Below are positions 4,986 through 55,335 of a stretch of 64,000 nucleotides of DNA, one piece after another. Each line of letters starts with the position of its first letter. Position 1 is the first letter of the stretch. The position numbers were made by a program, and so were the translations under genes. Below the pieces are notes generated by a model, which was not told the DNA's origin, ran no database searches, and saw only the letters and a program-made list of their open reading frames with translations. Source of the stretch: a virus; IMG/VR virus record IMGVR_UViG_3300036828_000755, positions 1 through 64,000 of that record, one strand, 5' to 3'.

Positions 4986-5597
4986 ATGGACCTAACAGAG
5001 ATGATGGCCGCGGACGCGTCGAACGCCAAGAAGTCCCTGACGGCCGCGGACGAGGACCTGCAAGCGGTAGGAATCCTCGCGAACCACCAGCACTGGCTCG
5101 AGACGAGGCTCGACCTCGGGATCGTCTCCTCGATCAGCTCCCTCGATCCCAGCATCGGGGAACTGGAAGCCGCGCTAAAAGCAAAGAAGGAGGAGCTCAC
5201 GAAGATCAAGGAAGTCTCGCTCCCAAACGCGCTGGAGAAGTTCGGGATCTCGGAACTGAGGCTCGTCGACGGTTCCCTCGTCTCGGTCAAGGAGGAGGTC
5301 TACGCCGGCATCACCGAAGACAACAAGGAACCCGCGTTCAAGTGGCTCCGGGCAACGGGAAACGACGGGATCATCAAGAACGACGTCAACTGCGCATTTG
5401 GCAAGGGCCAGGACGCCGAGGCCAAGCAGCTGATCGACATGCTCATAGTCCAGGGTTACAGCTTCACGAACAAGTTCTCCGTCCACCCGTCAACCCTCAA
5501 GGCGTTCGTCCGAAAACAACTTGAGGCAGGGAGTCCGATCCCCACAGATGTGTTCTCGATCCACGTAAAGAAGGTAGCAACAGTCAAGGCCAAGTAA
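4986..5597 (+). CDS. Phage protein of unknown function upstream of the SSB-like gene
   Basis: A 203-residue protein led by a good ribosome site (AAGGAG, 4970-4975). The first third is helical and Lys/Glu-rich, with a coiled-coil tendency around residues 57-80. The rest is a compact mixed domain with well-spaced hydrophobics (VSVKEEVYAGI, NDGIIKNDV, SVHPSTLKAFV). I recognise it as a type often found next to phage single-strand-binding proteins but know no tested function. It is the first gene after the promoter-like gap and is separated from the SSB-like gene by 14 bases, so the two are probably made together in large amounts. Confidence 0.85.
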   Translation: MDLTEMMAADASNAKKSLTAADEDLQAVGILANHQHWLETRLDLGIVSSISSLDPSIGELEAALKAKKEELTKIKEVSLPNALEKFGISELRLVDGSLVSVKEEVYAGITEDNKEPAFKWLRATGNDGIIKNDVNCAFGKGQDAEAKQLIDMLIVQGYSFTNKFSVHPSTLKAFVRKQLEAGSPIPTDVFSIHVKKVATVKAK

Positions 5598-5611
5598 GAA
5601 GGAAAAGCACG

Positions 5612-6493
5612 ATGTCAACAGAAACGAAAGTCCTAGAACCAGAAAAAGAAACCGCCCTTGTGGAGCAAGACCAGGGGCAAGGGGTGGCCACCACGAAGGC
5701 ACCAACCACGGACATGTTCCAGGAGGACGCGGGCGGGGGCCTGGCCAACATTGGGTCGGCCGACTTCGCCATACCGTTCATACAGATCCTCCAGAAGGGA
5801 AGTCCGCAGGTAAGCAGGGCAAACGCCAAGTACATCAAGGGCGCAGCAGCCGGCATGATAATCAACACCGTCACAGGCAAGGTCGTGCCAGGCGAGCCAG
5901 ACGACAAGGATAGGCCGACGGGCATCCTGTTCATACCCTGCGGATACCAGAGCCAGCTCGTTCGCTGGAAGCCGAGGGACTCGGGCGGCGGGTTGGTCTG
6001 CCACTACAAGGAAGGTGACCCCGAATTGAAGAAGTTCAAGAGGAACGAGAGGGGCCAGCTGCTCGCCGACAACGGCGACCTCATCATCGACACGTCGTAC
6101 CACTTTGGCCTCGCACTCGACGAAGAACTCGGGTTTCCCGAGTACGCCGTCATCTCGATGGCGTCGACCCAGCGAAAGAAGTCCAGGACGTGGAACACCA
6201 TCATGCGGCGAATCATGTTCAAGAATTCACGAACTGGCGAAATATTCAACCCGCCGTCGTACAGCCACGCGTACAGGCTCACGACTGTCGGGGAAACGAA
6301 GGATACCTACGACTGGTATGGGTGGGCAATAGTCTCAGAGGGACAGTTGCAGGACGTCAACCTCTACAAGATGGCGAAGGAGTTCTCGCAGCAGGTAGCC
6401 TCCGGGAACGTCAAGGTGTCGGCGCCGCCGAACGAGTTCGAGTCGGAGGGGGTGGATGCGCCGCACCCCAACGGGGACGACATACCGTTCTAG
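5612..6493 (+). CDS. Putative single-stranded DNA-binding protein
   Basis: A 293-residue protein. The N-terminal 45 residues are polar and low in complexity. A central domain (about 50-240) includes FIQILQKGSPQVSR, an IINTVTGKV strand, and KPRDSGGGLV, a pattern seen in many phage proteins annotated as ssDNA-binding. The last residues are acidic and end in GDDIPF. This matches the C-terminal tip of bacterial SSB (DDDIPF), which recruits other replication proteins. The gene lies between a promoter-like site and a strong terminator, as expected for a protein made in bulk. The fold assignment is inference; the tip is directly visible. Confidence 0.75.
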   Translation: MSTETKVLEPEKETALVEQDQGQGVATTKAPTTDMFQEDAGGGLANIGSADFAIPFIQILQKGSPQVSRANAKYIKGAAAGMIINTVTGKVVPGEPDDKDRPTGILFIPCGYQSQLVRWKPRDSGGGLVCHYKEGDPELKKFKRNERGQLLADNGDLIIDTSYHFGLALDEELGFPEYAVISMASTQRKKSRTWNTIMRRIMFKNSRTGEIFNPPSYSHAYRLTTVGETKDTYDWYGWAIVSEGQLQDVNLYKMAKEFSQQVASGNVKVSAPPNEFESEGVDAPHPNGDDIPF

Positions 6494-6575: not shown

Positions 6576-8105
6576 ATGGATCGGCCAGCAACCGCCATAT
6601 TGGCCGAGAGGTTCATGCGACTCTTTGACGGCATGAGCCTGGCCTACGGTACGTACAACGTCAATGCTACCAGGGAAGACGGGAAGAGGGTCGGTGATGC
6701 TAGCACGGTGAGGGGGAAGGTTACCCACGAGCTCTGGGACAGGCACCTGACTGGGAAGCAGGGCTTGGGGGTCATCCCCATCAAGGAAGACAACACCTGC
6801 TCATTCGGCGCGATAGACGTCGACATCTACAACCTAGACCACAGGATGATAGCCTCCAAGATCAAGAGGCTCGGGTTGCCACTTGTCCCTTGCCGCACCA
6901 AGTCTGGTGGGGCGCACATCTACTGCTTCACGCAAGTTCCCGTGGCCGCTGCCAAGATGAAGTCCAAGCTGAGCGAGGTGGCGTCGTTCCTGGGCTTTGG
7001 CGGTCAGGAGATATTCCCCAAGCAGGCGCACATACTGGTTGACCAGGGCGACGTTGGCCAGTGGATCAACATGCCATACTTCAACGGCGTGAGGGGCATG
7101 CGGTACGCGATAACGGTGGAGGGCAACGCGCTCTCGGCCGACGACTTCGTCGGCTACGCGTACGAGAACCTTGCCACTGAAAGCTGGTTCAACGAGCTGC
7201 TCGTGATCGTGCAGGAGTTCGAGGAAGGCCCTCCCTGTCTCCAGGCACTGGCCCAGGTCGGCTATCCCAGTGGCACCCGCAACGACGGGTTGTACAACAT
7301 CGGCGTATTCCTGAAGCGGTCCAAGCCAGACAGCTGGGGGACCGACATCTTCGACTTCAACACCAAGTACATGCAGCCGCCGCTCACGAGTCCCGAAGTA
7401 CAGGGGGTCGTCAAGTCGCTGCGCAAGAAGGACTACGCGTACGCTTGCACGAAGCAGCCGATAGCCCAGCACTGCAACTCCGCGCTGTGCAGGACCAGGA
7501 AGTTCGGCGTGGGCAGCGGTACCACTGGTAGGTTCCCGATGCTCGGCGGACTGACCAAGCTGAACACCAAGCCGCCCATGTGGTTCTGGACGGTCGAGGG
7601 AGTCAGGATGGAGCTGACCACCCAGGACCTCCAGGACCCGCGGGCATTCCAGCGGCGGTGCATGGACTACCTCAACACCATGCCGCAGCTCCCCGGGGCG
7701 CCGGTGTGGCAGGCCGCGGTCCAGCACGCGATGGACACGGTGAACATCATAGAGGCCCCGGCGGACGCCTCGTCTGAGGGGCAGTTCTGGGAGATGGTGG
7801 AGAAGTTCTGCACTGGCAGGGCCCAGGCGATGTCGCTCGACGAGATAGTGTCTGGCAAGCCGTTCTCCGACAAGGGCAAGACATACTTCAGGATGGAGAG
7901 CTTGCTCTCGTTCCTGGGCAGGTACAAGTTCTACGAGTTCAAGAGCATCAAGGTTGCCTCGATGCTGAAGGACTACGGTGCCGAGCACCACTTCGACAGC
8001 CTCAAGGGCCGGGGAGTGAACTACTGGTCTATCAGGGAGTTCGCCAAGCAGACCGAGGGATTCGACGTCCCTGGCTCGGTCAAGGAAGGTGGGGACTCGT
8101 TCTGA
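6576..8105 (+). CDS. Archaeo-eukaryotic primase (AEP) superfamily primase
   Basis: A 509-residue protein. The AEP catalytic core is readable near the N-terminus: D81 and D83 in GAIDVDIYN bind the metals, and TKSGGAH (109-115, ending in His114) supplies the nucleotide-binding Ser and His. A following INMPYFNG segment resembles the part of the fold that carries the third acidic site in related primases. This arrangement resembles the primase domain of TOTE-type and phage primases. Around 290-310 a short Cys/His segment (C-x6-HC-x4-C) sits in a PriCT-like region, and the C-terminal 150 residues look like a helical winged domain. It would make primers for the family A polymerase. It follows a terminator, and its ATG 6576 has a GAGGAAAG ribosome site. 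Confidence 0.85.
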   Translation: MDRPATAILAERFMRLFDGMSLAYGTYNVNATREDGKRVGDASTVRGKVTHELWDRHLTGKQGLGVIPIKEDNTCSFGAIDVDIYNLDHRMIASKIKRLGLPLVPCRTKSGGAHIYCFTQVPVAAAKMKSKLSEVASFLGFGGQEIFPKQAHILVDQGDVGQWINMPYFNGVRGMRYAITVEGNALSADDFVGYAYENLATESWFNELLVIVQEFEEGPPCLQALAQVGYPSGTRNDGLYNIGVFLKRSKPDSWGTDIFDFNTKYMQPPLTSPEVQGVVKSLRKKDYAYACTKQPIAQHCNSALCRTRKFGVGSGTTGRFPMLGGLTKLNTKPPMWFWTVEGVRMELTTQDLQDPRAFQRRCMDYLNTMPQLPGAPVWQAAVQHAMDTVNIIEAPADASSEGQFWEMVEKFCTGRAQAMSLDEIVSGKPFSDKGKTYFRMESLLSFLGRYKFYEFKSIKVASMLKDYGAEHHFDSLKGRGVNYWSIREFAKQTEGFDVPGSVKEGGDSF

Positions 8106-10082: not shown

Positions 10083-12434
10083 GTGGAAGCACCAGGAGAA
10101 TTCCCATTCAAGACGCAGCCATATAAGCATCAGCTAGATGCCTGGAGGATTTGCAAGGATAGGGAAGCGTACGCCCTGTTCATGGAGATGGGCTGCGTCG
10201 ACGGCGACTCGACGATTTCCTTGAACTGGTTTGGAAATTCCAGCAACAAGACGCTGAGGGAATTGCACGATCGAGGAGTGCAGCCAAGGAGGCAAGTTAG
10301 GTCTGGCAGGTGCGCCGCAACTCGGTCATTCGTCGAAGGCTCATTTCGACTAAACGAGATCCTCTCAATAGCGGACGTTGGTCAGAAGGAGTCGGTCACC
10401 CTGACGCTAGCTTCCGGGAGAACGATCGCGGTAACCCCCGAACACGAAATCCTTACCACGGAAGGTTGGGCGTGTGCCGCAGCAATCCCCATTGGCGCAG
10501 AAATACTAACGAACATCTCAAAAGAAGAATGGGACGAGCGAAAACGTTCCATAAGAATTCCGCCAATTCCCCCGTGCGCCTTGTGCGGAAACCCAGACAG
10601 CATCAGGACGAGGAAGTCGAAGTATTTCGGGTGGTGCAGATCCTGCACGATGATGTACGTGTCGAAGAACTCGGAAGGTTGGACAATCGACAAGGATGGG
10701 TACATCAGGGTTGGCGGACACAAGGATCATCCCCGTTGTTCAACTTCAGGACAAGTCCTCGAACACATACTCGTGATGGAGAAGAAGTTAGGGAGATACC
10801 TTGCGCCAGACGAGCGAGTACACCACCATGATAGGAACCCGAAGAACAACGAACCTGAAAACCTAGAACTTCGAACTGCTGCAACCCACCACGAGGACCA
10901 CGAATGGTTCAAGAACCTGAGGCAAGACGTTTTTACCCCAGTTCCTGACACGCTGAAGGCTGCTAAATCAGGAGGCAAGCGCCAGATGTACGACCTCATG
11001 ATGAGGTCCCCAAACAACAGCTTCATCGCCAACGGGATCGTGGTCCACAACTGTGGCAAGAGCAAGGTCATCTGCGACAACGCTGCCTACCTCCACATGG
11101 ACAACAAGATCAAGGGCCAGGTGGTCGTCGCACCCAAGGGGGTGTACATGAACTGGGTAGAGAACGAGTTGCCGGCCCACATGTCCGAGGCCATCAAGCA
11201 CGGGGTTGCCTACTGGTCGTCCACGGCCTCGAAGGACGAGAAGGCCGCAATCAAGAAACTCTACCAAGAAGGCGATTTCTTGCGGACCCTGGTCGTCAAC
11301 GTGGAGGCGCTGAACACCGAGAGGGCCGCGAACGAGGTCGTCAACTTCATGCAAAAGTTCCCGAGCATGATCACCGTGGACGAGTCGACGACCATCAAGA
11401 ACCCCGACGCCAAGCGGACCAAGATCCTCATCAACGTCGGCAAGTACGCGAAGTACCGGAGGATCTGCACCGGGAACCCGATCCCAAACGGCCCGCTCGA
11501 CCTGTACAGCCAGGCGGAATTCCTGAAGCAAAACCAGCTGGGGTTCGCCAACTACTACGCCTTCAGGAACAGGTTCGCGGTGATGCAGGACCAGAAGCTC
11601 GGGAGCCGGTCGTTCAAGAAGGTCGTCGGGTACAGGGAGCAGGACCTCCTCAAAAGGCTGATGAGGCAGTTCTCCTACATCATCAAGAAGGAGGACTGCC
11701 TCGACCTACCTCCCAAGGTCTACCAGGTCGTCGACGTCTCGATGGGCCCCAGGCAGGCCGAGGCCTATAACAAGATGGTCGAGGACGCGTATGTCCTGCT
11801 GAAGGACGGCTCCCAGGTAACGGCGCAGATGGTGATCACGCAACTCCTCAGGCTTCACCAGATCTCGTGCGGCTTCCTGAGGCCGGACGGGATGCCCGAG
11901 GTCCCGTTCGACGAGCCAAACGAGAGGATGGAGGCGCTGCTCAACCTCCTCGACCAGGCCCCGGGCAAGGTCATCGTCTGGGCCAACTACAGGTACAACA
12001 TCAGGCAGATAGTCGCCGGGATCAGCGAGAAGTACGGGAAAGGGACGGTCGTCGAGTACTACGGCGACACCAGCGACGACGATCGCCGGGATGCTAAGAG
12101 GAGTTTCCAGGACCCGGGGTCTCCCGTGAAGTACATGGTCTCGAACCCAGACACAGGCAAGTGGGGGAACACCTGGACACAGGCAACGACGGTCGTCTAC
12201 TACTCCAACAGCTACAACCTCGAGGCGAGGGAGCAGTCCGAGGACAGGGCCCACAGGATAGGGCAGGTCGGGGCCGTGCACGCGGAAGGGTGCGAGCCGT
12301 CCGTGTTGTACGTGGACCTGAAAGCCAGGGGGACGGTCGACGAGCGGATCATCCGCGTCCTAAAGAACAAGAAAAAGCTCACGGACGAGATTGTCACGTC
12401 CAATTGGAGGTGGTTGATTGGCGAGGCCGCCTAG
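10083..12434 (+). CDS. SNF2-like superfamily 2 helicase interrupted by an intein
   Basis: A 783-residue precursor, of which 286 residues are intein and 497 remain after splicing. The extein has YKHQLDAW (Q motif), Walker A rebuilt by splicing as MEMG-CGKSK, motif Ia VVVAPKGVYMNW, and motif II ITVDESTTIKN. It continues with CTGNPIPNGPLDLYSQ, the second core domain with VIVWANYR, and motif VI QSEDRAHRIGQ. This is an SNF2/Rad54-type ATPase that moves along double-stranded DNA; phage versions are linked to replication or strand exchange. GTG 10083 has AGGAGGT (10071-10077) upstream. The gene is the last of the plus-strand unit and ends shortly before paired stem-loops. Confidence 0.93.
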   Translation: MEAPGEFPFKTQPYKHQLDAWRICKDREAYALFMEMGCVDGDSTISLNWFGNSSNKTLRELHDRGVQPRRQVRSGRCAATRSFVEGSFRLNEILSIADVGQKESVTLTLASGRTIAVTPEHEILTTEGWACAAAIPIGAEILTNISKEEWDERKRSIRIPPIPPCALCGNPDSIRTRKSKYFGWCRSCTMMYVSKNSEGWTIDKDGYIRVGGHKDHPRCSTSGQVLEHILVMEKKLGRYLAPDERVHHHDRNPKNNEPENLELRTAATHHEDHEWFKNLRQDVFTPVPDTLKAAKSGGKRQMYDLMMRSPNNSFIANGIVVHNCGKSKVICDNAAYLHMDNKIKGQVVVAPKGVYMNWVENELPAHMSEAIKHGVAYWSSTASKDEKAAIKKLYQEGDFLRTLVVNVEALNTERAANEVVNFMQKFPSMITVDESTTIKNPDAKRTKILINVGKYAKYRRICTGNPIPNGPLDLYSQAEFLKQNQLGFANYYAFRNRFAVMQDQKLGSRSFKKVVGYREQDLLKRLMRQFSYIIKKEDCLDLPPKVYQVVDVSMGPRQAEAYNKMVEDAYVLLKDGSQVTAQMVITQLLRLHQISCGFLRPDGMPEVPFDEPNERMEALLNLLDQAPGKVIVWANYRYNIRQIVAGISEKYGKGTVVEYYGDTSDDDRRDAKRSFQDPGSPVKYMVSNPDTGKWGNTWTQATTVVYYSNSYNLEAREQSEDRAHRIGQVGAVHAEGCEPSVLYVDLKARGTVDERIIRVLKNKKKLTDEIVTSNWRWLIGEAA
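10194..11051 (+). other. Homing intein with HNH endonuclease domain
   Basis: It covers residues 38-323 of the helicase. Block A begins CVDGDSTIS at the splice Cys. Block B is TPEHEIL (TxxH). A CALC...CRSC zinc pair (about 160-180) and an HNH_3-like domain (GYIRVGG, EHILVMEKKLGRYL, VHHHDRNPKNN, PENLEL) make up the homing part. Block F/G is NSFIANGIVVHN, followed by Cys324 as the +1 nucleophile. Every residue needed for splicing that I can check is present. Arg codon use differs from the extein: 10 of 23 are AGG and 9 are CGA or AGA, whereas 11 of the first 13 in the neighbouring helicase are AGG. Confidence 0.95.
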
Positions 12435-39838: not shown

Positions 39839-40594
39839 TTAAAACGTGTTCTCTAGGGAAACCTGGACATCTGTCTCGTCTGGTCCGCTGCACGTGAACG
39901 ACAAATCGTCTGACCCATACCTTACCGTAAAACTTTGCCCATCCTCGTCAACGAACGGGAATAGGTACGCCATCCCCCAGTTGGCGATGAAGTGCGACTT
40001 AAGGTTGGCGAACTCAGCATCCCTGAGTCGCTGATAGGAAAGCATCCACCCCATCAAACCGTCTGTAGGATACCCCGAAAGTCCCCCGCCAAATTCTGGG
40101 GAAGTGTACTTGATGCCCGGCCTAGTCTTCGTCACGATTGTCTGGAAATTCTTCTTCTGTGAATAGGGCAGCGTGCTGATGGCCCCGTTCCACAAGACGG
40201 GGAACCGCAGGCCAGCTTGTCCTGGGGAATAGTTCTGCGTAACTGTCTGTGTCAAGCTCAACGGCGCGTCGTAGTACGTGCTCTTGTTTTCGGAACCAAT
40301 GAAGCTGTCAGAGTCAAGGCTCAGGTTGTCGTACGTGTCGGGTCCAAGGGTCAACGTTAGGTCTGTCCCATACTGGCCCAAGGAACCAGTAACGGCATTC
40401 TTGATCACGTTCTTCTGGGCCTGGCTCAGTATGGCGTACGGAAGTTGGAAGCTGAACAACGCAGAAGGCTGGACAACGTACCTCTGCTCGGAACCGTTCT
40501 GGAACCTCCCAATCACGGTCTTAAAAGAGATGGTCATCGTGAACGGGTAAAGGGCCGCGGACGTTCCCCTGATAATTGGCAGTGGTACTGGCAT
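39839..40594 (-). CDS. Distal tail / minor tail protein (DUF2460-like)
   Basis: A 251-residue protein between the tape measure and the hub, the usual place of distal tail or minor tail protein M/DUF2460 members. The C-terminal part has the family-like run of a Leu/Trp-rich helix, LKSHFIANWGMAYLFPFVDEDG, then the strands FTVRYGSDDLSF. No catalytic motif. Start ATG 40594 has GCGAGGT upstream. Likely a structural ring protein at the tail end. Confidence 0.75.
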   Translation of the reverse strand: MPVPLPIIRGTSAALYPFTMTISFKTVIGRFQNGSEQRYVVQPSALFSFQLPYAILSQAQKNVIKNAVTGSLGQYGTDLTLTLGPDTYDNLSLDSDSFIGSENKSTYYDAPLSLTQTVTQNYSPGQAGLRFPVLWNGAISTLPYSQKKNFQTIVTKTRPGIKYTSPEFGGGLSGYPTDGLMGWMLSYQRLRDAEFANLKSHFIANWGMAYLFPFVDEDGQSFTVRYGSDDLSFTCSGPDETDVQVSLENTF

Positions 40595-40597
40595 GGT

Positions 40598-43500
40598 CTA
40601 CCTCGCTGCCCTCTGGACTTCCCTCGTTAGTAGGCTGTGTCCATCTTGCAAAGATTTAGCCGTCGCAAGCCCAACAGACCTGTTATTCTTCTGCAAATAA
40701 TCGTGGAAGCTGTTCGCGTCAAGCGTATGAACCGTGTAGTTGTTGTTGACCGTTACAGGGGGTTGTGGGGTAGGCGTGCGAGCCCCCGGGTTCACGATGG
40801 AGCCGAACTGGCTAGTCTGACCGCCCGGGACGTCGTAGTAGGTCGGTGGCCCGCCCAACAGCCCGTGCGTTTGCTTCCACACGAATCCCTGCGTGACGAG
40901 CGGGTACGGGCTAAAGTTGGAGGTGCGGAGTTGCCCCTTGACCCCTATGTCGGCGAAGGTCCCGGCAGAACTCGCCGTCACGTTCAAGGCTTGCGGGGCG
41001 AGGTACTGCCTCGCTTGAAGCATGTTGGATATGTCCTGGGCCCTCCTTGCAGGATTATTTATCATGCTACCGACGAGGGACGTCCCCATAGCCACACCAG
41101 CGAGTATCGCCTTTGAGATTGGCTCCGGGTCAATTATGGCGGCAGCCCCCAGCAGTGCCCCGGTTCCCTCGAGAGCTCCCCCAGCGCCGCCCCTCCTGAA
41201 GTCCTTGACTGCCTGGTAGGCCGCTATCCCTGCGGCCGCAACGCTCACGGCTGTGCCTATCGTGTTGGCCTGCGTCACAGCTGGCCTAGGACTGACGGGA
41301 GCAAGCGGTGGAAGTTCTTCTTCACCAGTGTCTATCCCAGGACTCACCGGGGCAAGCGGAGGTAAATCTTCTCCCTGGTATGCGCTAGCAAAGGCAAGTC
41401 CACCTCCACCTCCACCAATCAACGGAGTCCCTGCCAGGGCCCCGGCATTGCCGGAAAGGATTGATGCGTCCTGCCCAGGAAACAACGTTTCTGAACGATC
41501 TTGGTAAGCTTGGTCATCAAAGCTTATCGCAGTCGAGGTAGCAACTCCCCTATCCCCAGGCTGGTACCCAGGAAGCTGTGGATTCATGAACCCGAACTGG
41601 TAAGGCGTTATGGAGGGAGTGCCTCCCCACTCTGGGCCAAGGTTTGGGGGACCAACCCACCCGACCCTCCCACCGCCAAGGGCACCCATTGTCCCGCCAC
41701 TCGAGAGTCCGGGGGTAATTCCCAGGTTCTTCTCCATCTCGAGAAGTCTTGCCGTCAACCTGTTCAAGGCGTCGGTATTCTTGTCGGTGGCCGTGGTATT
41801 TTTCACGGTGACCACGTTCAACTGCGCGTCGATCTCCTCCTTTGTCGGGACCTTGGTGCCGAGCATCGTCCCACTCAGCATCTTCCCAAGCCAGGTGGGG
41901 GTGTGCACCGGATTACCTTGCTTGTCATACGTCACATTTTCCAACCCGGGCAAGAACATCTTGACGTCCTTCAACGTGTCGACCATGAAGTTCCCGAAAA
42001 CCTTGGAACCAAAACTCCTGAACTGGTCAGTCATGAAGCTCTTTATCGCGGGACCACGGTTGTACTGTGAGAAAGCTTGGAAGATTCCCTCGGAGAGGCT
42101 CCTGATCTCCTCGAGGTGCTGCTTGCGAAGGTCAAGCATCTGCTTGAGCTTCTCCATCTCAGCCTCACGAATTTGTTCTTCCTTCGTCTGTTCTGCCTCA
42201 AGTGTCTGGTCCCTGGCCTCGAACTCGGCCTGGATGTTCTTTAGCCGAAGCGTGTGTATGTTCTCGGCCGCAGCCATCTCCTCGTTCTGGCCAACGGCAA
42301 TACCCTGCAAGTATTCAACCCTGCTTTGCGTAACTTCGCCGATAGACTTGGCAAGCCTCTCACGGGCAGTATCGATCTCTTGCTCAACAACCTTTATGCT
42401 GTCGATCGCAGCCCTTGAGTTGGCCTGAGCCATGGCCAAGTCCCTCTGATTCTTCAAGGGGCCCTGACCCTCTATCGTTGTATATTTCTTGCGTTCCTCG
42501 TACGCTTCCTCAATCTCAGCAACCTGAGCTTTTCGGGTTCGCTGGATCTCGTCCAATGCCCTGTAAGCTGGAGACTGTCGCTTGTTAGCCTTAGCACTGA
42601 TCGTGCGATCGATCTGCATCGCAAGGTCTTGGCTGTCCTTGAACATGGCGATGCGCTGTTCAGCATCAGAGCCCAGCAGTTCCTTGTTATACCTCTTAAT
42701 ACCAGTGGTAAGCTCATCGAAGATTGCTACCTGTTCTTCAAGTCTCTTGTTTTCATCCTGGATTCCGCTTGTTGAGTCCATCCGAATCTGGGCTGCCGCA
42801 GTCATTGCATCGACGACGCTTCCGGTAGCTCCAGGTTTATCGAGGAGGTCCTGGGCAGCGATGCTAGCATCCCGAAGCTGTGACTTCTCCAACATCGCCT
42901 GGGTTGCCCGCTTTCTTTCGGTATCAAGTCGAATGATTGCGCTGTCCCTCTCAACTTCATTCGCGACGACCTGCTTATTATAGTCGTCAACATTATTCAA
43001 GAGTTTCAACGTCTTCTTGGCCGTGTTTTCCTTAACAATGTAAACGTCCAATATCGCCTGCTTCTCAGAGGCATAGTTCCCAATCGTGACGTTGGACTGG
43101 ATCTTCTCAATCGCCAGCTGATCCCTGGTCTGCCCAATCTGGGCCTGGGTCATCCTGTTAAGTTTACCAAGTTGGATGTCGCGGTTTTCCACAGCTTTAT
43201 CAGTAACATTCTTCCTGAGTTGGTCAAAATTCTCGAGTCTCTTCCTTCCAAGTTCACCGCCACCCAGCCCGGTAACCATCAGGTCTAGTTGGCGCTTCGC
43301 AACAGGATCATTAGCCTTGGCTCCTGCCTGCACCTCCTTGATCTTTTTTCCTAAAACGTCTATGTTAGCAATTTCTTGCTCATAGTCGAGCATGATCTTC
43401 TCACGAGGACTCCCCATCGACTTACGGGCACGAAGACCAACGTTGCCAAGTTCGCTGTACTTTTCATCAAGCTTATTCAACTTACCCTCGGCCTCAAGCA

Positions 43501-46500
43501 TCTCAGAAATGAATGCCTGGATCTGTGCCCTCTCGGTATTGATGATCAAGACATCGCCCTTTGCTTCTGCTTCACTCGCAGCCTTTTGGAGGTCGCTCTC
43601 CCTCACGATGGCGCCAGGCTTAACGGTGCCACCAGTATAGGCAGAAAACTTCTTCGCGAGTTCTTCCTGACTTTCTTTTTTTCGCTGACCCTCAGATTTC
43701 TTACGAGAAAACGAGCTAAACAACGTCCCAAACATCCCTAGTTCAGGATTCCCCTCAAAACCCGCCAAGAGCGCGCTCAAGACCCCATTCTTTCCCTTAA
43801 TATCTGCGATATACTTATCAAGGGCCTTAACACGGGCGTTATATTCCTCGCCGAGCCTACCTGTGAGATCTTCCTCAAGCACCATCCTGGTGCTTATGTC
43901 AGCTTTTATTTGCTCGAGTAATTGGTTTCTACTAGCCATGGCTTCTGGAGAACCGTCGCCAGAAGACTTACTTAACTTGTCAAAATCTGCAGCTGTTTTC
44001 TTCTTATAAAAATCTACGCGTTCCTTGGAATTGTCGGCGATGTCCTTGGCAGCGTCCTCGTTCATCATACCGTATGCGGCCAGGCCAACGGCTGCTGACG
44101 CAACCTTGAGTGGCAGTGGGATCACGGGTGTTGCCGCAAGAAACCTCATGAAAGAAAACGTGCCTAAGGCGCCCAAGGCTGCTGATATCGCTGTAAGAAC
44201 CTTTGCATACCTTGCCATGGCAGCAGAATTGTCGTCGGCGTACTTCACACCCTTTGACAGCATGCCAACAAACTTCGTAAACTCTGGCAAAAATGCCTTG
44301 CCAACCGAGTACTGCAGCTCAACCACGTTTTGCTCAAAAAGCTTAAGCTGTCCACCGGCCGTCATTAGGGACTTCTCATAAAGTCCATTAGCCTTTGCTC
44401 CCTCAAGGATAACGGCATTGAGCAAAGCTTGACGCTTCTCAACCTCGCTAGCAGGGCCAGTTTTTCCCTCAGCCTTTCGCTCTATGTTTAGCTGACGATT
44501 GACCTGCAACATGCTCACCGGGAGACCCATGCGGTGCAATGTCATGGTTAATCCGGTTGAGATGCCGGTAATGAGCCTCTCAGCTGCCTCAGACGGTGTT
44601 TGACCTGTGATTACCGAAACATTCTGAGCAACCTTGGCTAGCTGACCAGCCTTGCCAACATCAAGTTGCGCAAATATCATCTTCTGGACAAGCTGATTAG
44701 CAGACTCAGTTGTCATATTGAGCTTCTTAACGTTCTGGACGCTCCCCATCACGGCGTCAACGTCAAGCGCATTTATCTTGGCTATTTCCTTAGTAGAAAA
44801 CACCAGCGTGTCAACCTGCGCAGCATAGGTCGCCATCTGCTTAACGCCAGCAAAAACGGCTGACCCAGCCGACGCCAACATCGATGCCCCGACCCCAAAC
44901 CCGAGGTATCCTTCCCTGGAGCCAAACGCCCGACCACCACCGCCGCCACCACCCGCGCCACCGCCGGGCCCGCCCCCGCCAGGACCACCACCCCTGGCAT
45001 CCTCTGACTTGACGTACCTTACCTTTGCCTCGTACTCTTTTCTGTAAGCTGTCTGCCTCTTCTTACTCTGGTCTTCTTCCTTCTTATTTATGTCCATCTG
45101 GATCTTGGTAGAAGTCCCAGCAAACTTCCTCTCGTTGTCTATCCTAGCCTGGTCAGCCTTTTCCCTGGCCGCGGCCCTCCTCTTCTCGATCAAGCCTATC
45201 TGATTATCGATCTGCTCCTCAGCCGCGACCCGACCCTCGCCAACATCCGAAATCTTCGACTTGGCCCTCTCCTCGAGCGTACGACCACCGAGCATCGTGT
45301 AGTATCTTTTCTCATACTGCTGCCTGGCTTCTTCCAACTCAGCCGAACCACCGTACATAGCCCTCGCTGCTGCGGTCGAGGTCTGCCTTCGAAGAGTCTC
45401 CAACTTATCGAACTTGGGAAATGGCCCTTCCTGCCCCGGCTCAAGTCCCCAGTCACCGGGAGACAACCGACTTGCCTCACTCCTGTACCTAGCCCTTATC
45501 ATCCTAAGCTGAGGGTCACGAATCGAACTCTCCAATCTTTCTTGTATGTCCGCATCAGTAAGCCCGAGCCTTTTCTTGGAAGCACGAAGTTTTCTCCCAA
45601 GACGACCCTGGGCCTTTACCGCGTCGCTGTAGCGCTTCTCTGCATCTAGCTCAGCAAAAGCTAGGTTAGTCGTCCTCTCCTCGTAGGTGCCCTGGATTCC
45701 CTCGAGGCGACCTCGTGCGATTCGTGTGATAGCAGCCCGGCGAGCTTGCAGCCTGGATACCTGGGCATCGAACGAGGCCTCAGTCCCAGCTAAGCCTAAT
45801 CCTAGCGCAGATTCCCTGGACCCACGACGCCTCGCGGCTTCCTCCATCTTTGCCTTAGCAGTAACATCCCTGAATTCGTTTAGTTTACGGGCAGCAGCAT
45901 CAACGGCGTCGGCCAGGTTCTTGAGCCTTGACTGAAGAGCATCGTACCTCATCTGCGCCCGAGGATCATCAGCACTTGGCGGTCCAAAGGGCGCTCCCCT
46001 GTTTACCCTAGACTCGGCCGACTCTGGCGGCTCGAGGGGGTGGCGACCAGCCTTCGTTCGATCCCGCATCTCCTTGATTTTCCGGTACAAGGGATACAGT
46101 CCAAAGGACATGAAGTCAAGGTTACCAAACCCAGCCTCACTACCACCCCTCCCACCCCCAAGGTCGCCCATCCCCCTCAATGCCTCACCAATGAGGTTTC
46201 GGTGGGCACGGGGTTGGAAACTGGCACCGGTGGCCCCCGAGAAGAAATCCCTCTGTGCTTGGGCAATCTTCGCAGCCGCTAGGCGCCTACCGATTACTTG
46301 TCCCTCGGTCATTATCGAGGTAAGTCCCCTGAACCTGGGGTCCTCGAAACCGACCTGGTTAGCCATCTGCGCAGCCGGGCGAATAGCTAACATGGCTGGC
46401 TTTTCCCGATATCTACTAATGAACGAAGCGATCGCTTTTTGACTATATGGGGGAGCCGCGCGCTGCGCCCACGGCGAACTCAGCATGCTGGCAAATTCTG

Positions 46501-48103
46501 CCCGCAGATCCTCTTTCTTCCCTCTGTCAGCTGCCTCGAACTGGGCCATTTCCCGAGCAATCCCGAAACCAGGTTCTTGCACCTGCCTATAATGCGTGTT
46601 TATTCCCTGCATCAAAGCAAGCGCAAGCTCGTCCCCGTGCCTTATGTCTTCCTTGACTTGGCGACCCCTGCCACGGCCCTGTTGAATTCCTTCCTGATGC
46701 CTGGCTTGCCTCTCGTACTGGGTCAAGAAGGCGGCAGAACTAGCTGGTCCAGACATGATCGCCATGTTCCTGTAGAACGATTCGATCACCCCGATTCGCC
46801 TATCAAGACCAATGGCTGCCGCACCGATTAGTCCAGGGGTTGTTTCGGGAGCAACGCCAGAACCTTTCTTGATACCGTAATCGGTACTACGAGATGGGCG
46901 ACGCGACCTAGCCTCGATGCCGCCCTCTATAGTTGCTATGACGTGCTGCGCATAGACTTCGTGACCCTCATCATCGTAAGCAGCAGCCCTTCTCCTATAC
47001 CTCGCAACAGGAGACATGTATCGCGTCGCACCGCCACCGATCCGACTCTGCAAGTTCTCCAGTATCTCATCTGCCTGTTGCTTAACCGTTGCCAATATCT
47101 GCTGCTGCCTCGTCAACGGCCCCTGGTTGGCGAGCAACTGCGCCATGTATGGCTGCCCACCGAGCGGTGACCTAGATGCAAGAAGTCTGAGCGAACCTCC
47201 CACATCCCCCTGTGTTCGGTGAGCTTGACCAGCATCAATCCCATGAAACCTAATGAGATCCTGAAGAGATCGGGATTCGAAGCCGTGCATCCTCCACGGT
47301 ATTCCCCTCAAAGAATCCATCCAGATCTTTGAAGCCACGTAAGGAACAAGTTGTTGGACGAACTTCTTATCAAAGGGAGCGTTGTGGGCAATGAGGAAGT
47401 CAGCCTTATTGACCAAGTGACGTATCATGGTCGTCGAGATCGCCTGACCCTTGAGCAATTCAGCTGACAGACCTGGAGAAAGAAACTGGTGACGGCCCTG
47501 GTAACTCAGCTGCTGCATCCCCGTGTAGCTCTTCAACACCTTACCAAATTCCCCAGTTTCCTTGTTGAAGGAAAACAGTGTTGCGGTAAGCTCAACAACC
47601 TGATGCTTGAGGGCTTTTAACCCAGTCGTCTCCGTGTCTATGAAGAGTGCTTGGCCCATCACCTTTCCCTTGGTGACAGGGTCATACATCCCTTGCCGAG
47701 TGGCCATCTGCCGCTGTATTAGGGCCCCGTGCTTCTCGAGTTCCCTCCGAAGTGCAGCAGTCCCACTAGTCTCGGCAATCCTGGTAGCAGCAGTCTCCGC
47801 CATCCTCTCCAACCGATACGGCGTGTACCGGTTCAAGACTTGCTGGGCAGTCATCAGGACGCCCGCAGAAGACCCTATGCCAGCCGTCCTCTTCTCGAGT
47901 GCCCTGATGCTTGGCTCAATCCTCTGGATTGCCTCGACTATGTCGCCGACAGATTTGCCAGCAGCAACAGCTCGACGAACAACGCCGTCCAACGACATCG
48001 AGAGTCGGGACGCAAGCTTGTCCGCGTCCTGCATCTCGGCCTTGCCTTGGTTGGTGAAGCGAAGTACTACGCTCAGTATTTCGTCGTCAAACAGTTGCGC
48101 CAT
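40598..48103 (-). CDS. Tape measure protein with embedded DEDDh exonuclease domain
   Basis: A 2501-residue protein, the longest helical gene product here, placed after the G/GT chaperone as tape measures are. Residues 1-150 are helical. Residues ~150-310 are a complete DnaQ-like DEDDh domain. Residues ~310-1050 are charged and helical with a Gly linker. Hydrophobic segments occur near 1065-1090 (GASMLASAGSAVFAGV), near 1310-1360 and near 2330-2400. Long coiled coils fill 1400-2100. At about 1.5 angstrom per residue the tail would be about 375 nm long. It sets tail length and is likely passed into the envelope during DNA entry. No peptidoglycan hydrolase motif was seen. Confidence 0.93.
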   Translation of the reverse strand: MAQLFDDEILSVVLRFTNQGKAEMQDADKLASRLSMSLDGVVRRAVAAGKSVGDIVEAIQRIEPSIRALEKRTAGIGSSAGVLMTAQQVLNRYTPYRLERMAETAATRIAETSGTAALRRELEKHGALIQRQMATRQGMYDPVTKGKVMGQALFIDTETTGLKALKHQVVELTATLFSFNKETGEFGKVLKSYTGMQQLSYQGRHQFLSPGLSAELLKGQAISTTMIRHLVNKADFLIAHNAPFDKKFVQQLVPYVASKIWMDSLRGIPWRMHGFESRSLQDLIRFHGIDAGQAHRTQGDVGGSLRLLASRSPLGGQPYMAQLLANQGPLTRQQQILATVKQQADEILENLQSRIGGGATRYMSPVARYRRRAAAYDDEGHEVYAQHVIATIEGGIEARSRRPSRSTDYGIKKGSGVAPETTPGLIGAAAIGLDRRIGVIESFYRNMAIMSGPASSAAFLTQYERQARHQEGIQQGRGRGRQVKEDIRHGDELALALMQGINTHYRQVQEPGFGIAREMAQFEAADRGKKEDLRAEFASMLSSPWAQRAAPPYSQKAIASFISRYREKPAMLAIRPAAQMANQVGFEDPRFRGLTSIMTEGQVIGRRLAAAKIAQAQRDFFSGATGASFQPRAHRNLIGEALRGMGDLGGGRGGSEAGFGNLDFMSFGLYPLYRKIKEMRDRTKAGRHPLEPPESAESRVNRGAPFGPPSADDPRAQMRYDALQSRLKNLADAVDAAARKLNEFRDVTAKAKMEEAARRRGSRESALGLGLAGTEASFDAQVSRLQARRAAITRIARGRLEGIQGTYEERTTNLAFAELDAEKRYSDAVKAQGRLGRKLRASKKRLGLTDADIQERLESSIRDPQLRMIRARYRSEASRLSPGDWGLEPGQEGPFPKFDKLETLRRQTSTAAARAMYGGSAELEEARQQYEKRYYTMLGGRTLEERAKSKISDVGEGRVAAEEQIDNQIGLIEKRRAAAREKADQARIDNERKFAGTSTKIQMDINKKEEDQSKKRQTAYRKEYEAKVRYVKSEDARGGGPGGGGPGGGAGGGGGGGRAFGSREGYLGFGVGASMLASAGSAVFAGVKQMATYAAQVDTLVFSTKEIAKINALDVDAVMGSVQNVKKLNMTTESANQLVQKMIFAQLDVGKAGQLAKVAQNVSVITGQTPSEAAERLITGISTGLTMTLHRMGLPVSMLQVNRQLNIERKAEGKTGPASEVEKRQALLNAVILEGAKANGLYEKSLMTAGGQLKLFEQNVVELQYSVGKAFLPEFTKFVGMLSKGVKYADDNSAAMARYAKVLTAISAALGALGTFSFMRFLAATPVIPLPLKVASAAVGLAAYGMMNEDAAKDIADNSKERVDFYKKKTAADFDKLSKSSGDGSPEAMASRNQLLEQIKADISTRMVLEEDLTGRLGEEYNARVKALDKYIADIKGKNGVLSALLAGFEGNPELGMFGTLFSSFSRKKSEGQRKKESQEELAKKFSAYTGGTVKPGAIVRESDLQKAASEAEAKGDVLIINTERAQIQAFISEMLEAEGKLNKLDEKYSELGNVGLRARKSMGSPREKIMLDYEQEIANIDVLGKKIKEVQAGAKANDPVAKRQLDLMVTGLGGGELGRKRLENFDQLRKNVTDKAVENRDIQLGKLNRMTQAQIGQTRDQLAIEKIQSNVTIGNYASEKQAILDVYIVKENTAKKTLKLLNNVDDYNKQVVANEVERDSAIIRLDTERKRATQAMLEKSQLRDASIAAQDLLDKPGATGSVVDAMTAAAQIRMDSTSGIQDENKRLEEQVAIFDELTTGIKRYNKELLGSDAEQRIAMFKDSQDLAMQIDRTISAKANKRQSPAYRALDEIQRTRKAQVAEIEEAYEERKKYTTIEGQGPLKNQRDLAMAQANSRAAIDSIKVVEQEIDTARERLAKSIGEVTQSRVEYLQGIAVGQNEEMAAAENIHTLRLKNIQAEFEARDQTLEAEQTKEEQIREAEMEKLKQMLDLRKQHLEEIRSLSEGIFQAFSQYNRGPAIKSFMTDQFRSFGSKVFGNFMVDTLKDVKMFLPGLENVTYDKQGNPVHTPTWLGKMLSGTMLGTKVPTKEEIDAQLNVVTVKNTTATDKNTDALNRLTARLLEMEKNLGITPGLSSGGTMGALGGGRVGWVGPPNLGPEWGGTPSITPYQFGFMNPQLPGYQPGDRGVATSTAISFDDQAYQDRSETLFPGQDASILSGNAGALAGTPLIGGGGGGLAFASAYQGEDLPPLAPVSPGIDTGEEELPPLAPVSPRPAVTQANTIGTAVSVAAAGIAAYQAVKDFRRGGAGGALEGTGALLGAAAIIDPEPISKAILAGVAMGTSLVGSMINNPARRAQDISNMLQARQYLAPQALNVTASSAGTFADIGVKGQLRTSNFSPYPLVTQGFVWKQTHGLLGGPPTYYDVPGGQTSQFGSIVNPGARTPTPQPPVTVNNNYTVHTLDANSFHDYLQKNNRSVGLATAKSLQDGHSLLTREVQRAAR
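47174..47656 (-). other. DnaQ-like DEDDh 3'-5' exonuclease domain inside the tape measure
   Basis: Residues ~150-310. ExoI is ALFIDTETTG with D156 and E158. ExoII is FLIAHNAPFDKKFV with H240, N241 and D245. ExoIII is AHRTQGDVGGSLRLL with H295 and D300, the His-x4-Asp spacing of the DEDDh class. All five catalytic positions are present in the right order, and the frame is continuous with tape-measure sequence on both sides. Confidence 0.9.
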
Positions 48104-48109
48104 CTCTAA

Positions 48110-48981
48110 TTACCGACGTCCTTTTGTTTGGGATTGGGACTGCTGTTGGCGAGGGACTTCCCTGATAGAGGCCGACTGCAGAGCATCGACCCTCGCCTGT
48201 TCATCTTGGAGGAGCACGAACGCATCTACGATGCGGGACGGCCATTGCAAAAGATCCCCGCCGTAGGGAGCCGCGCCGAACTCCTTCATTATCTTGGTTC
48301 GCGCGAAAAGTTGTATCAACTCCGTAGACTTAGTTGATATGAGTGAGACAGGGCACTCGCTAGTTTCGGTGCCTGAGATGTTGAACGGACGACCGTGGTG
48401 GTCGTGGTATCCTGCTTCCCAGCATGACGCCCTCTTCGGGTCTACATGGTCTGGGAAATAGGTATTACAATTTCTTTGTTGCCAGTATCCCCTTCGCTTA
48501 CACCGTCCACAATCGAAGACTTCTGACTCATGTCCGCCGGTGCGCCAGAAATGGTAGGCGATGGTGAGTTTTTTCTTTCTGCGCCATTCAGCTCTGACTC
48601 CGACTTGATCGCGTCGATGACCTCGTCAAACAGTGCGGACGGGAAATCCTTCCAATCCTCGACGCCGAGCGGCTTCCCGTCAGACTCGATCCCGTCTATC
48701 CGCTTCAAGCCCCACAGGAGCCAGGCAGGGTTCACGGTGCCGAGCATGATACCGTCCAACTCTTCTTGTAGTTCGAGCCACTTAGCAGTGTCGCGGGTCT
48801 CCTCGTCGACCTGCTCAATGCTCGCTTGCTCCTTGATGATCTCACGTATCCTGCGGTTCGGCCCGGAGATCTTGGACCTCAGCTCAAGTCTTCGGCCCTC
48901 AGTCATCTTGTGCAAATAAAAAACGACGCCTTCGAAGATCTGAGACTCGCGGCGCCTGAGAGTCTCATGCTTATAGACCAT
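48110..48981 (-). CDS. Tail assembly chaperone long form (GT) made by -1 frameshift
   Basis: Frameshift product of 290 residues: the first 138 from the short chaperone frame, then 152 from the -1 frame read from base 48568 to the stop at 48110. The -1 frame is open throughout. It encodes a protein-like extension with cysteines (FDCGRCKRRGYW, RNCNTYF, RASCWEAGYHDHH, SECPVSL), then a helical tail (ELIQLFARTKIMKEFG). Lambda G/GT and its relatives use the same design: the T part recruits the major tail protein to the tape measure. The Cys cluster suggests a zinc-stabilised T domain. The tape measure starts seven bases after its stop. Confidence 0.85.
48442..48981 (-). CDS. Tail assembly chaperone short form (G)
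   Basis: A 179-residue unshifted product with a helical, acidic body and a polar C-terminal tail rich in Ser and Pro. It lies between the major tail protein and the tape measure, as lambda gpG does. AAGGAAG precedes ATG 48981. The last 41 codons overlap the -1 frame of the long form. Short and long forms together would coat the tape measure until tube assembly. Confidence 0.85.
   Translation of the reverse strand: MVYKHETLRRRESQIFEGVVFYLHKMTEGRRLELRSKISGPNRRIREIIKEQASIEQVDEETRDTAKWLELQEELDGIMLGTVNPAWLLWGLKRIDGIESDGKPLGVEDWKDFPSALFDEVIDAIKSESELNGAERKNSPSPTISGAPADMSQKSSIVDGVSEGDTGNKEIVIPISQTM
48568..48574 (-). other. Programmed -1 frameshift slippery heptamer A_AAA_AAC
   Basis: On the minus strand the heptamer AAAAAAC begins at 48574. 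The 0-frame codons are AAA (137) and AAC (138), so the phase fits X_XXY_YYZ exactly. It lies about 125 bases before the 0-frame stop. Confidence 0.88.
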
Positions 48982-49052: not shown

Positions 49053-50339
49053 TTATGCGATGACGAGTGAAAATTCATCTCGGACCGCGAGCGACGTCGT
49101 CGTCGCCCTGCTGTCTGCATAAGAGGCATCGAACCGAAGTTGTCCATCACCCAAGACGTGGGCGGCTAAGTAGACGTTCTTGAGCAAGAACACGAAGGTG
49201 TTACCAACGTTGGTCCCAAGGTTAATGGCGAAGTCGACCGGGATCTTGTTGTCGCCCCACGACTTGATGGTGTTCACGGCCACCGTGTCGTCGTCATAGA
49301 CGTTGAACGTAAGTGTTATGTTCCTAACATCACCCTCAGGCAAGCTCGGGTAGTAGCTACCGAAGGTATCCCTCACAAGGAGATTGTTCGTCTGCACGCG
49401 GATCGTTGCGTTACGAATAGTAGGGAATGAGGCTGAGCCCGTGGAGAACGTTGCACCGTCCGTCGTCGATGCAGCCTGACCCGCCACGAAGCGCCCAGTA
49501 AATCCCGGGATGATGTTACCGCTCGTCACTGGGGCAGTAGGTTCAGGAGGGAAGGTCAACAAGCCTCCCTTTTGGTAGACGTCAGAATTCCCGTAGTCCT
49601 TGCTCCTCAGCACCCAGTAACAGTCGCCGTTCGCCTGCCACGTGGCAACGTCCTGGTTGAAATTGAACGTCGACTCAGTGACGAGGCAGGTGTTGCCAAC
49701 CCTCTGGTCCAACGTCGTCGGCGTCCTGAAAGACCAAAGGGAAAACTGCGCGATCTCGTCCACGAACGTGTACTGTAGCTTGACCCTGCTCGCGGTCCCA
49801 CCTGCACCAGCACCTTGCCCATTGCCAATAGACCCACACAACGTCAACGTAGTTGAGCTTGCGGCAAAGGCGTACCAGGTGCCATTAGCATTGGTATTGA
49901 TGGTATGTCCAGTGACCGTCACAACCTCGAATGATCCTGAAGGAATCCCGTGCGCGCCACAAGATACCACGATAGGTGTTGCATCGGTCGAGGACGTGAC
50001 AGCCGTCGAACCAACACCAACCGCAGCAGTCTGCCCAAAAATGGCATAGAGCAGCGGGTCAGCATCTGGAGCAACGCCAGGTGTCCCGTTGCCAACAAGG
50101 GACATCTCTATGCTCCAGCGCCCCATCCTGCGACCACCGACCATCCCTTCCATCGAGCGGGTGCCGGTCTTATCAGCGCGCTCGAGCAAGGCCACTTCGT
50201 TCTGCAACTCCATGCGGATGAACCTGCACGCGTTGGCGTTGCCCACGGTTGCCGTGCCCGATGTATTTGGGATGATCCCAAACGCTGGCTGTTGCTGAAG
50301 ATACGCGCGTTCAAGTCGCGAGAAAGAATACTGTGCCAT
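49053..50339 (-). CDS. Major tail (tube) protein
   Basis: A 428-residue beta-rich protein upstream of the G/GT chaperone genes, the standard place of the tail tube subunit. The sequence has regular strands and an inserted Gly/Thr/Ser-rich domain at about 100-190 (TDATPIVVSCGAHGI ... GNGQGAGAGG), which looks like an Ig-like decoration. The C-terminus ends with strands LAVRDEFSLVIA. AAGGAGA lies before ATG 50339. It would stack in rings around the tape measure. No enzyme motif. Confidence 0.85.
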   Translation of the reverse strand: MAQYSFSRLERAYLQQQPAFGIIPNTSGTATVGNANACRFIRMELQNEVALLERADKTGTRSMEGMVGGRRMGRWSIEMSLVGNGTPGVAPDADPLLYAIFGQTAAVGVGSTAVTSSTDATPIVVSCGAHGIPSGSFEVVTVTGHTINTNANGTWYAFAASSTTLTLCGSIGNGQGAGAGGTASRVKLQYTFVDEIAQFSLWSFRTPTTLDQRVGNTCLVTESTFNFNQDVATWQANGDCYWVLRSKDYGNSDVYQKGGLLTFPPEPTAPVTSGNIIPGFTGRFVAGQAASTTDGATFSTGSASFPTIRNATIRVQTNNLLVRDTFGSYYPSLPEGDVRNITLTFNVYDDDTVAVNTIKSWGDNKIPVDFAINLGTNVGNTFVFLLKNVYLAAHVLGDGQLRFDASYADSRATTTSLAVRDEFSLVIA

Positions 50340-54435: not shown

Positions 54436-55335
54436 TTAGCTGAGCACCTGCAGCCCGAACACGTTGCGAAGGACGGCGACGCCATAGAGCACGTCGACGG
54501 TAAACTGCTGCGCAAGGGTATTGGGGGCATAGCTCAACACTACGCGCATACCGAAGTTCCCGAGGGTGGCATACTCCGCCACGGCACCGGTATTCGGGAG
54601 AGGCTTGGGAAGCATGCGCATCACGAGGGCAAAGGCGTCCCGAGCAAAGGCAAGGTTGTACGTGGTGTTGCCAACCTTGGAAACGTACTGGCTGCGCATG
54701 ACAAAGAAATTCTTGAGTCTGCCGACCTGGCCAGACGGGATGACGTTCGAATACTCGGGCGAAACCTTGTCTTCCGAGAACCGCTGGATCTGGCGCATGT
54801 CAGAATAGGTCGAGCCGCTAACGAGCAAGAACTTCGGCAAGGAGTCGGAGACCTTCGCGTTGAACAGCGCAGTTTCAGCGCTATCGACCACGGATTCCGT
54901 GATCGTCGTGTTCCCGGTACCGACCAACGTGTTCGCAGTCAAGTTGAGGTAAAGCTGGGTAAGGTCGGTCTCGATTCGTTCCGCCAGCGAGATGATCGCT
55001 GGCATCATGTACATCTGGAGCAAGTCCGGGTGTGCCAGCACCCTCGTAACGTCCGGGATCTGGAAAGACGATTCCGCGTGCGTGTTGATGACCACCTGCG
55101 CATTACCAAGGCTGGGGTTCTGCGTCGCAACAGACCCGCCTTCTGCAATGTTGTTGGCGGCCATGACTGGCGGAATCGGTATATTGACGGTGTCCCCCTG
55201 GTTGGCGAGGTCTGCCTCATACGACCTGTTGACCAGGTTCCCCATGACGAGGTTACCGACCAACGCCGGCAAGGCGTCCGCCGCAACAAGTTTTACGATC
55301 GCATCAGCAACATTTGCTGAGGTAATGGCTGGCAT
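54436..55335 (-). CDS. Major capsid protein
   Basis: A 299-residue protein in the HK97-fold class, of the P22-coat-like branch by sequence style: VADAIVKLVAADALPALVGN, NLVNRSYEADLANQGDTVNIPIPP, a helical ERIETDLTQLYLNL spine, and PKFLLVSGSTYSDMRQIQRF. It is preceded by the scaffold gene, as is standard. AAAGGGAG precedes ATG 55335. About 300 residues fits a capsid protein without a fused protease or delta domain. Self-assembles into the shell around the scaffold. Confidence 0.88.
   Translation of the reverse strand: MPAITSANVADAIVKLVAADALPALVGNLVMGNLVNRSYEADLANQGDTVNIPIPPVMAANNIAEGGSVATQNPSLGNAQVVINTHAESSFQIPDVTRVLAHPDLLQMYMMPAIISLAERIETDLTQLYLNLTANTLVGTGNTTITESVVDSAETALFNAKVSDSLPKFLLVSGSTYSDMRQIQRFSEDKVSPEYSNVIPSGQVGRLKNFFVMRSQYVSKVGNTTYNLAFARDAFALVMRMLPKPLPNTGAVAEYATLGNFGMRVVLSYAPNTLAQQFTVDVLYGVAVLRNVFGLQVLS

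Follow-up and report, generated by a model that had tools for sequence, protein, structure and literature searches.

The locus described here raises the question of whether a phage tape measure protein (TMP) can carry an exonuclease and, if so, what such an enzyme would do in a phage tail. It lies in a stretch of 64,000 nucleotides, referred to here as the window, which is part of an IMG/VR phage record of 131,754 bases. An earlier note on this DNA had proposed that a DnaQ-like DEDDh exonuclease domain is built into a TMP, and had pointed out that other tape measures contain lysozyme or peptidase domains. The latter is indeed the case, since muralytic and peptidase domains have been described in TMPs, and the former is upheld by profile matches, the predicted fold, synteny and a match of the carrier protein to phrog_28. 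The open reading frame in question (40598-48103, minus strand) starts with ATG, contains no internal stop codon and encodes 2501 residues.

The genes surrounding this frame were compared with those of related phages. These relatives comprise six IMG/VR contigs that were found through the tail-tube protein and a seventh that was found through a tail-tube alignment. Six distinct TMPs are represented in all (those of the window, L008, L010, L011, L009/L012 and L014), which are exclusively metagenomic and include no cultured member. In the window, the genes on the minus strand encode, in this order, terminase, portal, scaffold, major head protein and, further along, tail-tube-like protein, chaperone and TMP. 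The tail-tube-like protein (49053..50339, minus strand), which is named by position and conservation only, is 63-76% identical to its counterparts in the relatives, and it is located directly upstream of a tail assembly chaperone pair of the lambda G/GT type (48110..48981, minus strand). This pair consists of a 0-frame ORF (48442-48981), in which the slippery heptamer A AAA AAC (48568..48574, minus strand) is in the right phase, and of a -1 frame extension to about 48110 that stops approximately 7 bases before the TMP start. Overlapping chaperone frames were also observed in L008, L010, L011 and L012, and the heptamer A AAA AAC is present in L014 too. Downstream of the TMP, on the same strand, follow a putative distal tail protein with a weak resemblance to DUF2460 (39839..40594; E-value 0.0037, which is below the cut-off), a protein of 1278 residues and then giant ORFs of 3111, 1962 and 2092 residues (14142-35994, minus strand), which are probably tail fibres or adhesins. 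The core of the TMP (residues 1050-1420; 43844..44956, minus strand) is conserved in all relatives and matched phrog_28, the PHROGs family 'tail length tape measure protein', with an E-value of 2.8e-5, a family that was matched by the cores of two of the five family members. None of the Pfam TMP families matched the window protein, and no signal was obtained when its core was compared by hhalign with lambda gpH and the TP901-1 TMP. With a tail tube and a frameshifting chaperone encoded upstream, distal tail genes downstream and a core that matches the PHROGs TMP family, the 2501-residue ORF is, as judged from its sequence and context, a tape measure protein. Elsewhere in the window, on the plus strand, we observed two proteins with matches to Pfam DUF7307 (Pam3 gp33-like) and Pam3_Gp34 (4986-6493), a match to the AEP-TOTE archaeo-eukaryotic primase domain, which is named after a conflict system (6576-8105), and an SNF2-type helicase (10083-12434) that is split by an intein-like segment (Intein_splicing E-value 2.6e-8, just below the cut-off) with an HNH endonuclease (E-value 3e-8).

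The putative exonuclease domain corresponds to residues 150-310 of the TMP (47174..47656, minus strand). The five DEDDh residues that had been placed in this part of the uninterrupted frame were found at exactly the positions given in the earlier note and in the right order: D156 and E158 in the Exo I motif D156-T157-E158 (codons at 47630..47638), D245 in an HNAPFD motif (codon at 47369..47371), and H295 and D300 in the Exo III motif H295-x4-D300 (47204..47221), all on the minus strand. Taken alone, the bare motif is weak proof, because a DxE..D..HxxxxD pattern with the same spacings appeared in 60 of 500 shuffles of so long a protein (12%); a stricter pattern that includes neighbouring residues appeared in none of 2000 shuffles. 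An HMM search and a structure prediction had been suggested in the earlier note as checks of the proposed domain, and both agree with it. In a PHROGs profile search, TMP residues 100-306 matched phrog_192 ('DNA polymerase exonuclease subunit') with an E-value of 1.4e-18. The Pfam RNase_T profile scored 19.2 bits against a cut-off of 24, so that Pfam alone would miss the domain. Comparison with stand-alone phage DnaQ proteins by hhalign gave a probability of 99.7% and an E-value of 8.7e-26, and a PDB profile search returned the exonucleases of DinG (2.9e-8) and PolC (2.8e-7), and also Cas2-DEDDh. The domain part of the AlphaFold model, with pLDDT values mostly between 70 and 90, shows a DnaQ-like, RNase H-like exonuclease fold. 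Foldseek matched this model to DinG, TREX2, RNase T and the DnaQ domain of S. thermophilus (Cas2-DnaQ); for the structures 8zef, 6a45, 8h2f and 3ngy the E-values ranged from 1.5e-6 to 5e-5 with a probability of 1.00. A chance origin of the motif is excluded by the profile matches and the predicted fold. Residues 150-310 are confirmed as a DEDDh exonuclease domain, of the 3'-5' type, by profile, predicted fold and invariant catalytic residues.

A fusion of this kind could in principle reflect misassembly or a frame break between the domain and the tape measure, which the earlier note had named as a finding that would refute it. This explanation was ruled out, because the frame across the fusion is also uninterrupted in the relatives L008, L010, L011 and L009/L012, which are independent contigs. 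L009 and L012 are contigs from different metagenomes, and their TMP residues 1-1050 are identical. The syntenic TMPs of L008, L010 and L011 have lengths of 2666, 2460 and 2576 residues, respectively; those of L009/L012 and L014 are cut by contig ends. Besides the window protein, the TMPs of L008, L010 and L009/L012 contain an exonuclease domain with all five catalytic residues. The L011 TMP has kept the homologous region (hhalign probability 96.8%, E-value 2.6e-10) but has lost the catalytic residues, while the L014 TMP is without the exonuclease domain.

The pattern of conservation bears on whether the domain is an enzyme or a building block. When the four TMP domains with an active site were aligned with one stand-alone DnaQ (about 195 columns), 20 columns were invariant and these include all five catalytic residues, an outcome with a chance probability of 7e-6. 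Among the four TMPs, the catalytic residues are unchanged down to identities of 28-40%. The exonuclease part of L012 is divergent, with an identity of 28%, and its best 50 Foldseek matches included no DnaQ. The fold could serve purely as an N-terminal plug, spacer or docking domain in which catalysis is vestigial, and the retention of the region without catalytic residues in L011 is in line with this. However, a plug leaves the invariance of five catalytic residues in four TMPs unexplained, and the entire domain is absent from L014, which makes a structural role alone unlikely. Between the window and L008, the domain has a pN of 0.256 and a pS of 0.84, the latter being saturated, and amino-acid identity amounts to 58% for the domain, 64% for the TMP core and 43% for the coil. 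By these comparisons, the exonuclease domain is under purifying selection, with a constraint that nearly equals that of the TMP core and exceeds that of the coil. In a tree with nine stand-alone phage exonucleases, the four TMP domains that have an active site form one clade (support 98/97); at the level of sequence, a single origin of the TMP exonuclease domains is thereby shown.

A comparison of L012 with L014 revealed how this part of the TMP varies. In DNA, the head and tail genes common to these two contigs are 96.5-98% identical, while the 300 nucleotides before the TMP are 100% identical. From the first TMP codons onwards, about 890 residues of L012 and about 460 residues of L014 show no DNA similarity, after which the two proteins rejoin with 119 of 120 residues identical at L012 residues 942-1061. 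The cassette of L012 is 427 residues longer than that of L014, which is roughly the size of two enzyme domains. A block that follows the exonuclease (residues 388-506 of the window TMP, IEGGIEAR...STDYGIK; 46586..46942, minus strand) is kept also in the exonuclease-less L014. We conclude from these alignments that the N-terminal part of about 590 residues is an accessory cassette, which is replaced or lost in close relatives. Because it is lost in L014 or dead in L011, the cassette is dispensable in some relatives.

This turnover has consequences for one of the roles that the earlier note had considered, namely the trimming of DNA ends. An exonuclease at the neck might trim or hold the leading 3' end for ejection or circularisation, and the location would be appropriate: in phage 80alpha the TMP N-termini are located at the neck, adjacent to the end of the DNA, with the C-termini pointing to the tip (PMC11661146), and the exonuclease described here is N-terminal as well. 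Nevertheless, the domain is absent from L014, whose head and tail genes, where shared, are nearly identical to those of L012, and the L011 copy is dead, which together disfavour the trimming of packaged ends. In addition, the cassettes of relatives hold enzymes that act on free nucleotides. We therefore consider DNA-end processing in the virion improbable.

The latter enzymes were found at a shared insertion site (residues 544-563; 46415..46474, minus strand), which is empty in the window TMP and in L010, where 12 and 11 residues, respectively, separate the anchors, and which is filled in L008 and L012. In L008 it holds about 155 residues with a predicted DUF4406 / nucleoside 2-deoxyribosyltransferase-type domain (L008:13870-14262) that matched phrog_355 nucleoside 2-deoxyribosyltransferase with an E-value of 5.5e-21 and PF14359 with an E-value of 1.3e-16; no sequence relative of this domain was found in the PDB. 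In L012 the site is occupied by a dCMP deaminase (phrog_174 E-value 4.1e-22; PF00383 E-value 2.5e-13) in which the HAE and PCxxC motifs are present and which Foldseek matched to human and T4 dCMP deaminase. The window encodes a stand-alone dCMP deaminase, to which the L012 domain is only 24% identical; it is therefore not a recent copy of this gene. Thus, the TMPs of L008 and L012 each have two enzyme domains and the window protein has one. The earlier note did not mention this exchangeable cassette or the additional enzymes in relatives. Enzymes of three unrelated types, two of which occupy one site, together with a frequent turnover, are what one might expect if the TMP N-terminus simply tolerated insertions and collected functionless fragments of nucleotide-metabolism genes. 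Such neutral inserts would decay, as has happened in L011, but the active sites of the exonuclease and the deaminase are intact and purifying selection is near the level of the TMP core, so that neutral capture appears very unlikely.

We also considered the possibility that the domain is an intracellular enzyme for replication or proofreading, which is injected for the next round of infection or acts before assembly, the fusion being a mode of expression or packaging. The nearest relatives of the domain are stand-alone exonucleases of the replication type. A separate exonuclease copy elsewhere in the phage was rejected, since the TMP was the sole phrog_192 match in three large phage records of 117-132 kb (G000, G001 and G002), and the lack of a separate gene is in favour of an intracellular enzyme. 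On the other hand, the family A DNA polymerase of the phage shows its own D-x-E motif at the N-terminus, as read by eye; TMPs are made late in infection; and the domain is missing in L014. Altogether, we regard a function in replication or proofreading as unlikely.

According to the earlier note, no tape measure with such an exonuclease had been described, and none was found in the collections or literature searched. No tape measure was found when 84,980 genomes of bacteria and archaea were scanned for tail-tube, exonuclease and TMP N-terminal patterns, where it should be noted that these are short peptide patterns that can miss distant relatives. Likewise, no tape measure was present among the matches listed from a tblastn search of 50,697 phage records, which cover 60 of 91 phage records. 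The exonucleases matched in those scans stand alone; in two cases they are fused to a helicase. A match in a Xanthomonas phage (H43) was dismissed, because it is antisense to an annotated gene. IMG/VR pattern scans by major head protein, TMP core and the block behind the domain produced no further fused TMP. We thus found no second lineage of the TMP-exonuclease fusion in IMG/VR, the 84,980 genomes or the 50,697 phage records. The literature on tape measures with an exonuclease, DnaQ or deaminase yielded no phage example, with thin coverage of subscription journals. Two further observations were made. In Syntrophomonadaceae (L135:6100-8277 and L141:8378-10447), an exonuclease of the same subfamily follows a PIF1-like helicase (named by eye) as a C-terminal fusion. 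Hundreds of proteins are related to the major head protein (54436-55335, minus strand), of which the 80 listed have identities of mostly about 67%. They are located for the most part on short IMG/VR contigs, and next to the more distant of them no TMP of the present type was found.

Taken together, we are moderately inclined to regard the exonuclease domain as an accessory, cassette-borne and catalytically competent-looking enzyme that is probably injected. The TMP would occupy the lumen of the tail, its N-terminus being oriented towards the head and adjacent to the leading end of the DNA, as in 80alpha, and would pass into the envelope along with the ejected genome. TMPs exit the tail and are thought to form a channel across the membrane (PMC11445458), and the lambda TMP comes near inner-membrane proteins and the defence nuclease SNIPE during injection (PMC13190303). 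The exonuclease would then exit the tail at a late stage, in proximity to the DNA, and may act at or inside the inner membrane or in the cytoplasm as infection starts. It could degrade the 3' ends of DNA or RNA that belongs to the host, to competitors or to a defence system, as the earlier note had partly suggested; alternatively, it may take part in nucleotide processing with the dCMP deaminase or DUF4406/deoxyribosyltransferase-type partner domains in the cassettes of some relatives. As the partner domains have deoxynucleotides or derivatives of these as substrates, joint nucleic-acid degradation and nucleotide handling, or the destruction of nucleotide-based defence signals, is plausible. 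An argument against delivery is that a folded domain of 160 residues is a tight fit in a tail tube with a width of about 4 nm (PMC9022992). A broader proposal, which we put forward tentatively as possible but short of probable, is that the TMPs of this group load a swappable cassette of nucleic-acid or nucleotide enzymes in every tail and deliver it with the genome for first-strike counter-defence or takeover before phage gene expression.

These findings suggest that nucleic-acid enzymes may be among the cargo of phage tails. If this is true, the known cargo of tape measures would be widened from cell-wall enzymes to nucleic-acid enzymes, and a link would exist between phage TMPs and the recently described TMP-derived effectors of injection systems with swappable domains. 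L012 and L014 represent a natural experiment, in which nearly identical neighbouring head and tail genes are combined with different cassettes, on the entry of TMP termini and the selection acting on them. Point mutants make it possible to test what portion of the TMP enters the cytoplasm and whether enzymes are delivered through siphophage tails.

Enzyme-bearing TMPs and swappable TMP-like effectors were already known, whereas no phage TMP with nucleic-acid enzymes was found in the collections and literature searched. T5 pb2, with a zinc carboxypeptidase/muralytic activity, and the mycobacteriophage TM4 TMP, with a peptidoglycan-hydrolase motif (as cited in PMC11445458, PMC5099701 and PMC13277306), likewise have an enzyme domain within the tape measure; their enzymes target cell wall or protein, as far as these citing papers describe them, whereas those described here are nucleic-acid or nucleotide enzymes in an N-terminal, head-proximal position. 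The domain shares its predicted fold and catalytic motif with the DEDDh domains of DinG, PolC, Cas2-DEDDh, TREX2 and RNase T, which are cellular or CRISPR proteins with other partners. The stand-alone phrog_192 exonucleases of Rhizobium phage RHph_TM30 and Agrobacterium phage Atu_ph07 belong to the same family, with the same active site and 28-31% identity, but stand-alone phage DnaQ-like exonucleases are encoded by separate genes, comprise about 190-300 residues and are not fused to a structural protein. Polyvalent proteins, from phages and conjugative elements, are also large, predicted to be injected with the DNA and equipped with nucleic-acid or nucleotide enzyme domains; their description (PMC5512222) is without tape measure, DnaQ or deoxyribosyltransferase, whereas in the present case it is the tape measure that bears the enzyme domains. 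A further parallel is provided by the TMP-derived effectors of actinobacterial contractile injection systems (Sle1 type, Tme), reported in 2026, which have variable C-terminal domains (PMC13277306). As in the present case, a TMP-related protein in a tail-like tube carries exchangeable domains, one of which is cytidine-deaminase-like. Unlike the present case, these are bacterial injection systems, the variable domain is C-terminal and no nuclease is mentioned (PMC13277306). The TMP gene described here is placed between head genes and tail genes in a phage record, and DUF4157, the core domain or partner that marks the Sle1/Tme effectors, had no match in the window TMP or its four flanking proteins; by these features, the protein is not an effector of this type.
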